Shown here: piece by piece, positions 25,883-43,381 of the stretch
Layout of the letters: each line of letters begins with the position of its first letter
Numbering within the stretch: the stretch's first letter is position 1
NCBI GenBank assembly: GCA_020091685.1
Contig: CM034610.1
Coordinates: forward strand, 14,574,724-14,638,723
Length of the DNA stretch: 64,000 nucleotides
Direction: 5' to 3'
Origin: Lutjanus erythropterus
Lineage: Eukaryota > Chordata > Actinopteri > Lutjaniformes > Lutjanidae
Program-made: the position numbers and the translations under genes
Notes under the pieces: generated by a model
Database searches by the model: none
What the model was told of the DNA's origin: nothing
Seen by the model: only the letters and a program-made list of their open reading frames with translations

Positions 25883-28800
25883 TTAGTTCTTCTCTCCCTC
25901 CTCTGCATCTCCATCATGCTCTGACCCAGACTCCCGGTCCTCAGTGAGGGAATTGTCCCTCAGTCCTGCCATTGGGACCAGTTTCCCCTCTGAGTCCACT
26001 CCCATCGGCTGGATAATACTGTCTCTGCAAAACAAATGACAAACATGGACAATTTCTAATATCGTTCTTATTGTATTCATTTAACCTTGGTTTGCTCTGA
26101 GCCTGCACTGAGGAGGGTTTTTTAAAATCTTTGTGAACTGTTGTCTTTGTAAAGACTTATACAAATAAACTTCTGTGTGTCTATGAGTCTTTGTCCTTTC
26201 ACTGACCTGGACAGCTTGTTGAAGAGCATGATCAACCTCTTGGCCTCCTCCTCCTTCTCATCTTCCGTCATGCCCTCCATAGGGTCCGGCAGCTCTGCCT
26301 CCACCCGCCCAGTCACAGGGTTGATCCGGTCTTTGACCTGCCTGTACTCCTCTGTGTCTGAGTCGGAATCGCTGGAGTACTGGCCCTCAGTGCTGGGGGT
26401 CCTGGACCCCTGACCGCCCAGCAAACCCCTGGTGGCCAGCAGGCCAGCTGCGTTACCGTAGCCCGTGTACTTAACAAAACGACTCACTGGAGGAAGAAGT
26501 GAGGGTGGTGGTGACGGTTGAGACAAAAATTAACGTTAATGAAAACTTGTTTTTTGATGTTATTTCTAATCAGGTACTTAAGATGAACAGAAAATAAGAG
26601 ATAAATTCAGACAGACACCAGAGGGAGTCTGATTACAAATGCATGTTGTGCAGACAAGCCTCCCTCAAAAATCAGAGAAATCTATTTAAAATTCTAGTGA
26701 AGAGCTTAACATTTACAAATATGCCAGGCTGTATTTTTAAGAAATGCATATAAAATCATGCACAAGGCTATTTTTAGTGCAGTCTTTTATTTACTTAGTT
26801 TTTATATTGTTTAAACTGCCTAATACCCTCTATTACTCTTGAAATGTTTTAATTTTGGTCTACCATGTAACGGACTTTGTAACTTTGTCGCTGTATAAAT
26901 ACTCTTATTATTATTATTATTATTAATAATAATATTGTTGCTCTTGTTTTTAGAATAATTCCATTAGAATGGCAGACAGTGACAAATGTTTAAATAAATA
27001 TTCCACTGAACTGCTGAAACAAGTAAAATACAAATGAGTGATTGTGTCAAACAAAGGGCAAAATCTTTCAAGCAATCTTACAGAAAATTAAAGGGGAAAA
27101 TGAGGATTTAAGAATCTTAAGAGGTTAAAAAATAAAAAACAATACCAAGGTTTAGAGTAATAAAATTGTTGTCATCAGATGTTTGCATTTTCACACATTT
27201 TTAACGTAAAAATCGAGATACAGTGGTGTTGATCAAATTCGATCATTTCAATTTACAGTGTTGTATTTTTTGGACTGTAAGCTGCGATACAAACAAATTA
27301 CTGTTGATGCAGGGAGAGTGATCATGTCTCCTCCTACCGTTTTCCTTGCAGAGGACAAAGATGAGGTCGGCAGCACAGTGTTTAACATCTGTATCCAGAT
27401 GAGTCATGAGACGGATCAGACGACTCTTCACAGTGGAGCCTTCCTCCGGCCTGTGTGACACGTCTCTCAGAGGAGGCAGGATCTAGTGACCGGGATAAAT
27501 TACGATTAAAATCGTCTTTAACATTTGAGAAGTTTCAAATATAATCCAGATATTGTGAGAGGCAAAATGTGACAAGATGTTTCTTTGTAATATTATTTGG
27601 GGGTCTTACATGTTTCCTGATGTAATGGCGTGTTTCTCTGTGCGCTCTGCTGCTCTCTGTGAGCAGGTTGAGGATTGGTGTCAGCTTCTCTTTGATCTTA
27701 TCACCCTGAGAAGAAACAAACAAGGAAGACTCCCTCAGGTTATTTCACTATTAGTAAATAGTCTACTTTTAGGAACGAACTCTTAATTTTTAAGCATTTG
27801 GTCTCTTCTCTGCATATGACATTCTCCCTCACCGACTCCAGGCATCTCTCCATGAACATCATCAGGTTGTGGACACAGTCCATGTTGACCCCCTGGTACT
27901 GCTGCGAGCCGGGCTCCAGAGGAACCATCAGCAGCACGTCGAGACACTGGAGAGGCAGCGCTGACAACAGGTTCACTGTGTGACTGTTGGAAGAAGAAAA
28001 GGTTACAGAAACTGAAATTAGGAGTAAATGAAAGAGAGCATAATGGATTATTATGAAAGATGTCACAATCTCCAAATCCATGATTAGATCAGACTTGACT
28101 TTTGATTTTAAGGTCATGATCTGACTTTTTAAATTTAAACTTTTTTAGCACTAATGGCTGTGCCATCATCAGACTATCAAGTTTTGATTTGTTAAGATGA
28201 ACAGATCATTGCTTTTATGCTCTGAAAACTGTCATTTACATTTTCAAATTCTTCTTGTTTTTGAAGTGTTGTTTTTTTCCTTAGGACATGAGCTGTACCC
28301 TGCAAGTAGGTGGGTGAAGAAAAAAAAAATCATATAGACTTTGAAGGTGCATTTCAATCCATTTTCAGTTTCACCTAATTATTATATTATTATATTACAG
28401 TATACGCATAAATACCATAAGTGATACAAATGCAAACATATACTACTATTAAAGCTGTGATCAGAATTAAACATTACACAGTACTTTACAAAATAATATG
28501 GAGTGAGACACAAATTTATCACCAGCCCAATATAATTTAAAATTTAAATATACATTAAAGAAATAATACTGTTAGAGGAATCATCCCTGATACAGAAATG
28601 AAAATGAAATAAAATAAAGTTAAATTAAAGCGTGCAAGAAGAGGATGTGTGATATTGAATCTACTTACAGATTAATGCTCACAGAGTATTACTTTGAATT
28701 ACATCAAAAGCAACACTTTTTAATTAAAGTGAGATTTAGGGACCAAATTAGGCTTGGATTTTATAACCTGGGATTAAAGTATTACTGAAGAAGCAGATTT

Positions 28801-31800
28801 CATAAAACTCCAAATTAAAACATTAATTAACTGGTCACATTAAAAAAAAAACTGGTCATTGCATTTTATAGATAAAAATATGAATGGTCTGTAAAGCTCT
28901 CTTTACCATTCACTGACATTTTTTATTTACAAAAAAAGACAAAAACAAAAAAGGACAATTACAAAAAATTCTCATCCTACCATCTTTTCTTCTTTAATCT
29001 ATAACACTAAAGATTACACTCCCTCCTTTTACCTCATTTATACCTGTACTGCACATGCTGTATACACATGATCATATACTGCAGTATCCACAGATCATTT
29101 TGACAACATTGTATTTAGCCATTTATGCCAATATAACTTATTTGAACTGAAATAAAACTGAATTGACGATTTTCTTCCTATCCAACCTATCCAACTTTTT
29201 CTTTCATGCTCACCCCTGCAGCTCATCAGTGTCGTCTGTAAGCAAACACTTCCTCATCAGGCAGAGACGCAGAAGCGCCACCAGGTGTCGGTAGAGAGCC
29301 GCATCATCCTGAGGGAGGAGAACACAGACAGAAAACATACAACTTAATTCTTTATGATGTGAAGTACAGCTGAAAAACAACAGAAATTTTTATTTCATCT
29401 GTTCATCTGTAGTTGCTGACATTAAAGCTGAAGTCTGAGAGGTTAATGATGGACTCAGCGTCACTGACCTCACTTGGCTCCTGCCTGTGGGTGCTGTAGG
29501 TGATGTTGAAGAGGATTTTGAGGATCTCGACAATTCGCTGAGAGGCCTCCAATGAGATGGGTGCTGCGGCTGGGTCCAGCACACACTCATACTGGTCCTT
29601 CCATTGAACCTCCAGGCAGCTCTCCAGAGCTGCAGTGAGGATGGACACGCCTCCCTCCTGGAAAAGCAACATGATGAGTGTGAGAGTAAGAAGGACGCCA
29701 GATAAGATGTGCAGAACAAATCAGGCCTGGTCATATCAGTATTAGAATAAACTGAAGGTGACATGATAAACAATAGGAGATACAGCTCAAGTGAGGTTAT
29801 GTTACCTGTTGAAGTTGAGTCCTGAGCTCTGGCTGTAGTGCAGTCATGAGGAACATGAGGCGTAGTTCATAGAACTGAACACTGGAGGGAGATGAGCAGC
29901 TGATGCTGGAGGACAGACGCTCAATGAGACCACACATGAGCCTGATGGAGACAACAACAAGACGTCAGCTGTCTGGAAATGTGTTTATTTAGAGATTATG
30001 ATAAATAATGATAATACTGTCAGTGTGACGAGCCACAAACAATTTTATCTCAGTCAGTCTGTCAGTTTCCATCTAAGATTTGTGTTTCTGTTAACAGGAA
30101 TGAACTTGTTGCTTTCAATCAGAGTCGTGTGTTGTGAGTCTGTGACTATAATCATCCATAAAAGCACATATTTTGTGATCACTGAGGCATGTCTCTGCCT
30201 TTTCTCATTTTTGAAAGCTGGTGCAAATGTTTTAGTTTGAAGAGAAGCATTTGTTCTGAGATTCGGAGGATTTAAAGATTATTTTTTAGCACTAATGTAT
30301 AATGTGGATTCATTTACACAATTTACCCTGTGACTATACTCTATTTTAGCTAAAGCCCTAAAGCGATTTAAGGCCAGACTGTCTACATTTGTCCATTATG
30401 AGCAGGAGAAAGCTAAATGGACCCAGAAATGTAAATTACAAAGTCAACAGCTGTGTTCAACAGTATATTTGTGTGCATGTTTCTGACCGCATCCTGTGAG
30501 GAAGCCCACCTGAGAGCACTGAACCTCTCCTGTGCCCAGGTGCTGTTGTACACCACGTTACACAACACCTTCATGGCCTCTTTCCTCTGCACCTCCTCTC
30601 CTGAAGGCTCCTCCTCCTCCTCTTCCTCACCCTCCATCTTGCTCTCTCTGCGGTCCCTCCTCCCCTGCTCCAGCACCTTCTGATGGATGCTGCCTCTGTG
30701 CATCTCGTTGATGCTGGTCCTGTGGCTCCCGAACCAGCTGATGCTGTCCAGGTCGCCACTGTTGCTGATGCTGACGTCACTCTTAGCGTCCTCATCAAAG
30801 CACTCTTCATTTTGGTTGTTGGCCTCAGTGTCACCTTCATGTTCGTCAGCGTGACCCTGCAGCACTCTGGCCTCGGTGAGAGAAGTGATGATGTTGTCGT
30901 AGAAATCAGAGTCGGGGTCGTTGGCTTCGTCGCTTGCATCACATGTGGTCAGCCCAGCCAGTTTGGCCACAGTCAGGAGAGCACCGTCGGTCACTAGAGG
31001 AGCCAGGACCTTTTTGTCTCTGGAGAGGATCCTCAGGGTGCGTAGACATACTCTCAGCAGACGCTGTTTAACTCCTGTTCTGATGAACCTCAAGAGGACA
31101 ACAGCTAGATTCTGAGGACAGGAAAAGAGAGGCAGACATTTAGTTTAACACCACACTTTAAAGTACAACTGCCAAAACATCTGGGCAAGCAAAAAGTGAC
31201 AGTGTCAGGTACCTGTCTGAGGATGACGCCTCGATCCTCCTGGTCGTACTCGTCACAGTCAGAGTCAGAGTCAGTGTATTCCCTCACTTTGTTCTTCTTG
31301 AACTGGTACAGCAGGGCAAAGAACACATCATGTCAAATGTGTCACACTTTATTGCAGTTAATGAATTATACACCTTGCTCAGACTGCCAACCTGTATCCA
31401 TTTTTTTGGCATATACAGATTGATTTGTGAAAGTCTGGACAGCAAAAAAAAACAAAACACATGAAATGTGATTTTTGCAAATGGGATCCAAATCACATTC
31501 GGAGGTGGTTTGAAATTTGATCCCAATCGTTTTTGTACAGACACGTTTCAGTCTGGACACTCTAATTAGTCCAGCATGTCTTTTGCATCACTCACAACAT
31601 GACACACAACAAAGACACCAAATCCAAAGTGTCAGAAGTGCATCAGAGCGGCTGGGCATTGCACTCTTCTCTCTTTGAGTTTTTCTGACATGAAAGAGGA
31701 TATCTGCATTAACTTGGGAACATGAATGTTTGGAGGGTCAGATGATGGATCTCCATGTCTCCTGCTTCTGCAACAGAGAGCTGTGTCACAAGCATCTGTA

Positions 31801-33743
31801 GTTCCAGGTCTGTGTTTTGGCAAGAACCTGGTGATACGATACCTATCATGATACAAGGGCTAAGATTCAATATATTGCAATACTGTATGCAAGGTGATAT
31901 ATTGCTATTTTAAAATCAAATTATAGGAAACCTGTCATAGTATAAAGAAGTATAGAACACACCACCATTTGTCTGACATCTTACTTTAAAAAGTTGACTT
32001 TTTTATGCAACTAGAACAGTGAAGATAGATAACAACACTGCTGTCTAGTGACCAGGGGTATAAATACAACACAAAATGAACTACTGCCATGAATCTTTGC
32101 ATGTATCACAATATCACAATACAGTGTGTTTGAGAATCATTTAAGTATCACACAATGTGGTCAACACAGCAACACACACAAATCCGGTCTGCTCGCTGGT
32201 AAATAACAGTGCAGGCAGTCCATCTTAAAGACCTGACTCGAGAAACAAATCTGATTTGCCTGCAGTCTGAACAAAGCCTTAGTTTAGGGAGTTCTCATGA
32301 GCGACCAAAAGCAGCACTTGAGCATTATTTCTAAACTGTGTCGGCACTGTACCTCTTCTAGTCTTCTTTGCTTTAGGAGGTGGATAGTTCAGTTTCATAG
32401 AGCAACGCAGCAGAAGAGAGGGAGAGAGTAATATTAGTACATATTCATGTCACCATAGTGAATCAGGGGCCAAATTACATACAGTGTCTAACCATTAGAA
32501 GTCATCTTAAGAGCAATTCATCTTAAGAGCAATTCACAAAGCTGCTCAAAGCAACTTTACTGAGTGACTGAGAGAGCACCTAAACTAAGAGGAAACTAAA
32601 CAAACGGCGGGGTTGATCCTGTTGCTATAGATGACATCATGTTTCTGAATTAAGTTATTATTGATTTTGAATGAGAATGAAATACCGATGAGGAATATTT
32701 AAAGAGTACAGGTGCAGCCAAAACCAAGCTAGTAAAAATAATACAGTAAAGTAAAATAGAATAAAATTAATATTAAGAATATAAATAATAAATAGAGTAA
32801 GGTAAAATGATGAGCAGCTGGCCATAGAAATCTACACTGGGTCTCTGAATGCCTCACTTGTGAGCAGGCAATAAACACAGTCTAACCATATGTACAGTCT
32901 TTCAATAAACAATATATATTTTTCCATATATGAGAATGGCTGAGTATATAACAGACAGACTAACAGCAGAACTCCATGTAAAGACAGACATATTTTTAAA
33001 CTGATGGGCTCCTGTAATTGCTTTTTTTTAGATTGTCAATGTGATAAGATGCTGCGCTGACTTAATAATTAACATCTACCTCTTTTCAGGTATTTTTATG
33101 TTACTTGTTTGGAAACTCCTCACTTCTCTATAGATACTTTTATTTAGGAGTTTCTCTTAACTCTTAAGTTAGAGGCTACTTTTGACTTCAGGGTGTCTGT
33201 GAATACCCAGATTCATATCTGTTGTTTAATGGCTGCAAATGACAGAGCTGAAGTGTTGAATAGATTAACATGCAGCATGCTGGTTATTCAATCACTCTGG
33301 TCAGGCTCAATCTGCCTGAGCATGCAAGGAGAGAGGATCAGGGACGACTGATACAGCAGAATTACTAATCACAGACAGACTGTGGAGCAGGGGCGGGGAG
33401 GGGTGGATGAGATGGAGGAGTCGGGTAAGTAAGGGCTGAGGTGAGGTTTAAGGACCACAGGTGGGACTTAAAGAGATGCAACAGCAGCAGCAGCAGCAAC
33501 ATAAACCAACTTACTTTCCTTCGGTCTCTCTCCTCTGCGTCGAAGAAGAAGCACTGCGCAAACTGCAGGAGGGAAATGATTATAAGATGACGCTCTGCGA
33601 ATGTCAAAACATCCAGACACAAGGACGTGTGAGCTTCTTTGTGGCGGCGTTACCTCTTTGTTGAACTCCTGCAGCTGTGTCTGAACACCGTGCTCATTCC
33701 CCTGCTTGATGCACTGGATAATCCCTTCCAGGTCCACGTCCAT
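25883..33743 (-). CDS. Ric8-family G-alpha chaperone/exchange factor (synembryn, Ric8A-like) with acidic insertions
   Basis: Ric8 proteins are cytosolic armadillo-fold chaperones and non-receptor exchange factors for G-alpha subunits. Minus-strand exons in coding order: 33654-33743, 33515-33562, 31213-31302, 30510-31111, 29806-29941, 29469-29657, 29214-29308, 27833-27983, 27610-27705, 27338-27482, 26207-26486, 25883-26024; 687 residues. Family blocks: [13 protein letters not shown] (about 100), [114 protein letters not shown] and IIQPMG. The [14 protein letters not shown] stretch matches the CK2-phosphorylated acidic site of Ric8[10 protein letters not shown] and HLDTDVK favour Ric8A, whereas SRDKKVLAP is closer to Ric8B. 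The protein is about 155 residues longer than either, through exon 3 (residues 47-76) and a block at about 131-250. I did not assign a symbol because it may be a third Ric8 lineage. Confidence 0.9.
27984..29213 (-). other. Intron of Ric8-like gene, AT-rich
   Basis: No coding sequence or clear repeat structure recognised. There are A/T-rich stretches only. Confidence 0.5.
30590..30949 (-). other. Acidic/Ser-rich insertion inside the Ric8-like armadillo region
   Basis: Within the 602-nt exon, about 120 residues separate the block ending VAKLAGL from [13 protein letters not shown], which are nearly adjacent in Ric8A and Ric8B. The insert is rich in Asp, Glu and Ser, has a basic patch (GRRDRRESK) and ends in a Glu run. 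It has no intron of its own and the reading frame is open throughout. I recognise no domain in it. Confidence 0.75.
31213..31302 (-). other. Symmetric 90-nt acidic exon of the Ric8-like gene
   Basis: The exon encodes 30 residues with a repeated [13 protein letters not shown] core and starts and ends at codon boundaries. Ric8A and Ric8B align across it as if it were absent: the preceding exon ends DRRK and the next begins NLAVVLLRF. It could be included or skipped without frameshift. The splice sites are good (CTGTACCAG acceptor, GTAC donor). Confidence 0.75.
31303..33514 (-). other. 2.2-kb intron of Ric8-like gene
   Basis: The intron precedes the acidic cassette exon. It contains an 18-bp tandem duplication at 32503-32536 (CATCTTAAGAGCAATT twice), AT-rich sequence and, at 33478-33500, a short CAG/CAACAG run. 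No further exon is visible, although a very small one could be missed. Confidence 0.5.
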
Positions 33744-42604: not shown

Positions 42605-43381
42605 ATGGAGATAGCTGTTCTGCTGCTGCTGACTGTGCCTTTGACTGCTACCTCACCACTCAGACCAACTCACAGGTCAGTGAAAAACATCATCAACAAC
42701 AAATGAGAGGAGAGAAATACAGACAGAAGTCATAATGACTACCCTGTTACTTGGTAAATATCAAATACCTTTTTTTTTTCATGGATCCACAGGTCAGACA
42801 CAGACGCTGTCCTCCCAGGGGACATTGTCCAGGCTTCAGGGGTGAAAACATCAGAGGACACACAGGAGCAGCGTGTTCAAGCACTGAGGATCATCCCATT
42901 TCATTCAGAGGGCAAACATGTAGACCTGGATGCACTGAAACACAGGTACACAAGAGCATACAACATATGAGTGGCTGTAAATATGGAACTACAGAGGCCT
43001 TCTTGTATTATATCACATTTTAAATTCTAAGACAGTCTGTAGGCTAACTGATGCAGGATTAATACAGATTAAATACTGTACATTTCACAAATTATGGCTG
43101 TTGGTAAAACCTAAATTGTAGGTTTATGATTTACTTGAAGACTGGAGAGTATTTTTGTAATTGTAATGTTTTAAAAGCCTGAACTTAATTTAATTCTTTT
43201 TCTCCCTTCCATCACTGACAGCATGGCGTTGAAGTTACGTGCCCGGCGTGAACCTCAGCGTGGCTGCCACCTTGGGACCTGCCAGCTTCACAACCTGGCT
43301 GACACTTTATACCAAATCAGCAGGACAAATGGAAAAGATCAGTCGAAAAAGGCCCACGACCCGCAGGGATACGGCAGATAG
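42605..43381 (+). CDS. adm5: Adrenomedullin-family preprohormone, adrenomedullin 5
   Basis: Secreted vasoactive peptide of the calcitonin/CGRP/adrenomedullin family, expected to act on CLR-RAMP receptors. Coding exons: 42605-42675, 42793-42945, 43222-43381; 127 residues. Residues 1-17 are a signal peptide (MEIAVLLLLTVPLTATS). The furin-type site RARR (81-84) releases a predicted 41-residue peptide (85-125). It has the six-membered disulphide ring CHLGTC (90-95), the QLHNLADTLYQI helix and the DPQGYGR terminus, whose GR leaves an amidated tyrosine. No PAMP-like amidated N-terminal peptide is evident. Human ADM5 lies in the same region as PRR12, IRF3 and TRPM4, which supports adm5 over adm or adm2. 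The exon ending at 42416 is open in the same frame, so a start at 42371 would add 19 residues. I chose 42605 because its context (purine at -3, G at +4) and signal peptide are standard. Confidence 0.9.

Follow-up and report, generated by a model that had tools for sequence, protein, structure and literature searches.

A probable third RIC8 lineage in the PRR12-TRPM4 block of Lutjanus erythropterus

The structural literature describes two Ric8 isoforms in vertebrates, which divide the G-alpha classes between them (PMC6625990). RIC8A (synembryn-A) is a chaperone and guanine nucleotide exchange factor (GEF) for G-alpha i, q and 12/13, and RIC8B (synembryn-B) is a chaperone for G-alpha s and olf. 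A 2026 TRPM paper treats RIC8 as a three-member family of the TRPM4/TRPM5 paralogon, whose phylogeny and distribution agree with duplications in early gnathostomes (PMC13143021); its main text names RIC8 once, without describing the protein. In a 2013 Pax6 paper, the abbreviation list of a figure in which the acanthopterygian Trpm4/Irf3/Prr12 locus appears contains Ric8a (PMC3554528). Here we describe a Ric8 gene in a 64,000-nucleotide stretch of Lutjanus erythropterus DNA (the window), where it sits between PRR12/IRF3 and ADM/TRPM4.

We hold with good confidence that the window carries an intact gene of a third RIC8 lineage, labelled RIC8C here, which is nearer to RIC8A, originated in the early vertebrate genome duplications (2R) and was later doubled in the teleost genome duplication (3R). 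The trio of the TRPM paper would accordingly comprise RIC8A, RIC8B and the window gene, which is very likely the same gene as its third RIC8, given the same TRPM4 neighbour and the expected age. The existence of a third RIC8 would then already be in print in one line, and the points of most interest are its protein form, its double retention and a possible client. Among the papers listed in our literature searches none dealt specifically with a third Ric8, a weak negative with subscription journals thinly covered. The Ric8a of the Pax6 paper may also be the window gene: it belongs to an acanthopterygian locus with Trpm4, Irf3 and Prr12, as in the window, but it is named Ric8a in passages without analysis and the Lutjanus genome has another ric8a. 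The zebrafish 'synembryn-like' enhancer-trap gene of line HGn8H (PMC2970601) might be RIC8C as well.

Ric8 genes and their neighbourhoods in the same genome

The window is part of C20 in a genome of 937.6 Mb and 444 contigs. A search of this genome gave 16 Ric8 exon matches at five places, of which four are full genes:

C20, the window gene
C19:28.740-28.755 Mb, sister of the window gene, near PRR12 and TRPM copies
C12:23.52-23.53 Mb, ric8b
C12:38.83-38.85 Mb, ric8a

The gene at 38.8 Mb matches RIC8A at 3.8e-188 and RIC8B at 1.8e-139, and the gene at 23.5 Mb matches RIC8B at 3.9e-185 and RIC8A at 1.3e-151. Near the latter are sirtuin (SIR2) exons, at a distance of about 5 kb, and one of RFX at about 25 kb, in agreement with the published ric8b neighbourhood (PMC9897032, PMC11172991). 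Because the genome has a separate ric8a and a separate ric8b, the window gene is neither of them; that it could be the sole ric8a of the genome is ruled out by the 38.8-Mb gene.

The PRR12 exon was matched only on C20 and C19, the C19 match lying about 21 kb from the second RIC8C gene, and TRPM exons are found about 90 kb beyond this gene. No PRR12 or TRPM match was detected near ric8a at C12:38.8 Mb, the only TRPM matches of C12 being at 15.5 Mb. RIC8C belongs to a synteny block of its own, PRR12-RIC8C-TRPM, which is present on both C20 and C19. As the block is found twice, a doubling in the teleost duplication is probable, giving the C20/C19 pair. Since TRPM4a and TRPM4b agree with a teleost-duplication origin (PMC13143021) and zebrafish retains prr12a and prr12b (PMC11050278), RIC8C was most likely present in the block before that duplication. 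The deeper 2R date is based on synteny and on the trio statement of PMC13143021, which favours such an origin.

Besides these results, ric8a and ric8b are located on one chromosome (C12, at 38.8 and 23.5 Mb). The fifth place is a lone ric8b-type exon (C12:32203191-32203313, INPITGH...MFDKLSR) with no further Ric8 match nearby, apparently the decayed remnant of a ric8b copy. A search of viral contigs with fish ric8a gave six pattern matches for Ric8 relatives, none of which was confirmed.

Structure of the window gene, its sister and its neighbours

The window gene is located on the minus strand (33743-25883), with 12 exons and 11 introns, all of them GT-AG. The spliced model has a coding length of 2064 nt (687 codons plus stop) without internal stop, from a start codon at 33743 to a stop codon ending at 25883. 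Its features are as follows, exons 1 and 5 to 10 being given as in the spliced model:

33654..33743, minus strand, exon 1, start codon at 33743
33515..33562, minus strand, exon 2, 48 nt, equal in length to exon 2 of fish ric8a and ric8b
31213..31302, minus strand, exon 3, an extra exon of 90 nt (30 aa, residues 47-76), absent in fish ric8a and ric8b, with a 90-nt counterpart in the C19 copy
30510..31111, minus strand, exon 4, 602 nt, aligned with the C19 exon
30590..30949, minus strand, expanded acidic loop within exon 4, residues 131-250 (120 aa, 35 D/E and 10 K/R)
29806..29941, minus strand, exon 5
29469..29657, minus strand, exon 6
29214..29308, minus strand, exon 7
27833..27983, minus strand, exon 8
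27610..27705, minus strand, exon 9
27338..27482, minus strand, exon 10
26207..26486, minus strand, exon 11, 280 nt, a single exon in place of the two (145 + 120 nt) found in each of fish ric8a and ric8b
26437-26463, minus strand, GYGNAAGLL, in exon 11
26344..26382, minus strand, counterpart (13 residues) of the CK2-phosphorylated clamp of RIC8A, with S435 kept, T440 as S and two further serines (sites from PMC7044438)
25883..26024, minus strand, exon 12 including the stop codon

The Pfam family Ric8 (PF10165) matches residues 98-655 with an E-value of 1.9e-127 and 426.5 bits (curated cut-off 25.7), and the profile is covered in full (1-447 of 447), which makes the protein a member of the family. 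The best solved chains are mammalian RIC8A (6vu8, 1.9e-133) and RIC8B (8el7, 1.6e-111), in a search with a 657-aa version of the protein that lacked exon 3 and had two wrong residues. The original prediction of a 687-residue gene at these positions, with its motifs and with clear Ric8 blocks from end to end, is borne out exactly by the 12-exon model and the full profile match.

The extra length of the protein is mainly due to exon 3 and to the acidic loop, which has 14 residues in the three mammalian rows. Three traits are common to the C20 and C19 copies and missing in fish ric8a and ric8b: the 90-nt exon, placed at an intron position that both fish genes possess, the acidic loop with 120 residues in C20 and 110 in C19, and the fused exon of 280 and 283 nt. 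Separately from this exon change, an exon of about 633-639 nt in fish ric8b (C12:23530751-23531383) stands in place of several in fish ric8a. The loop is not unique to RIC8C, as it is likewise expanded to 25 residues in fish ric8b and to 49 in fish ric8a (with the best-scoring acceptor), RIC8C being the far end of this trend. Its position is that of a flexible loop, residues 102-106, in bovine Ric8A crystals (PMC6625990). When the structure of exon 4 was predicted from an alignment of two rows, the mean predicted local distance difference test (pLDDT) score was 48.7, with residues 74-140 below 50; this fits a disordered loop and is too poor to count.

The two copies are identical at 13 of 29 aligned residues in exon 3, at 31 of 102 in the loop and at 326 of 534 in the remainder, so the added parts evolve faster. 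Over 665 codons they differ at 239, 178 and 373 first, second and third positions, and 102 of the 164 fourfold sites with unchanged residue are different. These counts fit purifying selection on both copies with silent sites near saturation. The intact frame of both copies, together with the codon-position bias, rules out a pseudogene. In the C19 gene the donor following exon 8 is GC. The last exon of its model was closed manually at the in-frame stop codon, and a weak additional 21-nt piece from the automatic version was left out; either of two methionines four codons apart could be the start.

Among the residues of bovine RIC8A that bind the G-alpha tail on the concave face (PMC6625990), 8 of 10 are identical in each RIC8C copy, the differences being F163Y and F232Y/H. 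The GYGNAAGLL helix is unchanged in both. In the groove that binds the clamp R345, R348, R405 and K408 are kept, K349 is H and K352 is R. F163Y, in the pocket of the last G-alpha residue, and K349H, in the groove for the phosphorylated clamp, are common to both copies. The clamp itself has a 10-residue counterpart (SSDSDSD clamp) in place of SEDEDTDTEE of RIC8A; as to the presence of the CK2 sites, S435 is kept and T440 is replaced by S, as it is in both fish ric8a and fish ric8b. Out of 174 positions invariant in the five RIC8A and RIC8B rows, 127 are kept by both copies, 25 by one and 22 by neither.

The PRR12-IRF3-ADM5-TRPM4 block proposed for the window was checked by Pfam domains. PRR12 is represented by DUF4211 (1.3e-14, in concatenated open reading frame pieces) and IRF3 by IRF exons with an IRF-3 domain (5.7e-11). 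A TRPM gene was recognised as well; naming it TRPM4 follows the published neighbourhood. An adrenomedullin-type peptide at window position 43265 on the plus strand (CHLGTCQLHNLA...DPQGYGR, with an amidation-type end; Calc_CGRP_IAPP 1.4e-8) fits ADM5.

Origin of RIC8C and competing explanations

Identities were counted over 465 ungapped columns. The C20 protein has 301 with C19, 233 with fish ric8a, 220 with fish ric8b, 226 with mammalian RIC8A (6vu8) and 195 with RIC8B, and the orthologue pairs fish ric8a-6vu8 and fish ric8b-8el7 have 284 each. The identity of RIC8C to fish ric8a (50-53%) is below that of the fish-mammal orthologues (61%) and near that between RIC8A and RIC8B (50-55%). The protein tree was calculated from seven rows under LG+C20, with LG+G4 as second model. 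Under LG+C20 the path from fish ric8a to C20 is 1.21, compared with about 1.06 (summed branches) from fish ric8a to fish ric8b and 0.61 from C20 to C19, and the RIC8C stem has 0.58 changes per column. Given similar rates, the path lengths lean towards a deep split between RIC8C and RIC8A.

In the LG+C20 tree the RIC8C pair and the RIC8B pair are both supported at 100/100. Membership of the RIC8B lineage, or an A/B chimera, might be suggested by the RILSRDKK motif and by a RIC8B residue in both copies at 2 of the 23 sites which separate RIC8A and RIC8B in the five reference rows. The window gene does not group with RIC8B, as the approximately unbiased (AU) test rejects RIC8C with fish ric8b (p-AU 7.6e-5) and with mammalian RIC8B (6.2e-5), and the two readings are scarcely credible; RIC8B as origin of the whole gene is rejected. 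Both copies have the RIC8A residue at 10 of the 23 sites and the other 11 are mixed or neither; judged by its sequence, the window gene is closer to RIC8A than to RIC8B. A teleost-duplication twin of ric8a would account for this proximity to RIC8A, and two ric8a copies were once to be expected in a teleost genome. There are however two RIC8C copies, each beside PRR12 and TRPM, neither of which was found near ric8a, and a tree joining the window gene to fish ric8a without its C19 sister is rejected (p-AU 3e-53). On synteny and tree together we reject this twin, which we regard as highly improbable.

The remaining rival is a ray-finned duplicate of ric8a that arose after the tetrapod split and before the teleost duplication, landed in the PRR12-TRPM4 block and evolved fast. 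It would explain the best LG+C20 tree, in which RIC8C is placed with fish ric8a (support 51/25), the excess of RIC8A residues at the separating sites and the likewise acidic and expanded loop of fish ric8a. It would however squeeze the long RIC8C stem into a shorter time, the TRPM4-side position is the expected site of a 2R copy, and the RIC8 trio of PMC13143021 fits early gnathostome duplications. We consider this rival unlikely.

Several observations weigh against a third lineage of 2R age with an intact function. The tree has seven rows only, with no outgroup and no other fish. RIC8C is not separated from RIC8A: under LG+C20, constraining the three RIC8A rows to one group lowers the log-likelihood by 0.01 units (p-AU 0.48) and placing RIC8C with mammalian RIC8A lowers it by 1.07 (p-AU 0.27), while under LG+G4 support for a RIC8A clade is only 50/26 and the alternatives are worse by 0.66 and 2.29. 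The three resolutions are within 1.1 units (LG+C20) and 2.3 units (LG+G4). IRF exons, which lie beside the window gene, were absent near C19:28.7 Mb in the IRF exon search, and the doubling of the block is partial. Moreover, F163Y, F232Y/H, K349H and the 22 of 174 invariant positions lost could mean that the activity is altered.

RIC8C is probably a 2R sister of RIC8A, and it looks like an ancient Ric8 duplicate that is missing from the human counterpart region. A RIC8 copy on the PRR12/IRF3/TRPM4 chromosome most likely came from the early vertebrate genome duplications, and a second doubling in the teleost duplication would have led to the C20 and C19 genes. The original prediction of a distinct third Ric8 gene is supported by the separate ric8a and ric8b on C12, with which its refuting case (a protein nested in teleost Ric8A in a genome with no other ric8a) does not apply, and by the C19 sister. 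Its two options, a teleost duplicate or an ancient paralogue, each hold in part, the C20/C19 pair most likely dating to the teleost duplication and the lineage itself being older. The mixed A/B features are present and weaker than claimed, and of the proposed clade outside both paralogues, the tree shows the separation from RIC8B alone, the order with RIC8A ending in a three-way tie.

Predicted activity and possible clients

RIC8C resembles RIC8A in a full-length Ric8 fold by sequence, the tail contacts, the GYGNAAGLL helix and an S435-type phosphosite. It differs in its TRPM4-side locus, the 30-aa extra exon, the long loop, the fused exon 11, the changes F163Y, F232Y/H and K349H and the SSDSDSD clamp. 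With RIC8B it shares the family and about 46-47% identity (fish ric8b, 465 columns), but the RIC8B locus is a different one, where the neighbours are sirtuin and RFX. The window protein most likely acts in the cytosol as a chaperone and exchange factor for G-alpha, in the manner of Ric8A, and kinship and contacts point to a RIC8A-like G-alpha range (i, q, 12/13). Phosphorylation of RIC8A by CK2 at S435 and T440 raises its GEF activity and serves as an entropic clamp (PMC7044438). RIC8C presumably functions as chaperone and GEF under an altered control by phosphorylation, and its added acidic CK2-like material (extra exon, long loop, two more clamp serines) may make the activity more dependent on phosphorylation.

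A dedicated role as chaperone of the fifth G-alpha class, Gv, is a speculative and rather doubtful idea. RIC8C and Gv would be kept or lost together as a pair, and the changed tail pocket and the acidic loop would set client choice or control. Gv was lost at the base of tetrapods and has two copies in euteleosts (PMC5896119); its function was described as completely unknown until a 2024 study (PMC11087313). In the Lutjanus genome two RIC8C genes coexist with two probable GNAV genes, and the agreement concerns their presence only. The probable GNAV genes are located at C3:37110956-37142823 and C19:14383571-14395848, with the tails LEAVSLL and LAAVPLL. Their exon starting with NRLQES ends after STSM/STSL, while many other G-alpha matches reach about profile position 283; the GNAV label is based on this described split exon and not on a reference GNAV sequence. 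Among solved structures the joined C3 pieces match G-alpha-o best (5.3e-37).

A third Ric8, if true, would mean that the division of labour among these chaperones was once wider and was partly lost on the human line. The basis of client choice has been called not readily apparent (PMC7044438), and RIC8C, with its changed clamp and tail pocket, would be a natural chaperone variant for probing it, as well as a possible helper of the little-known Gv class.

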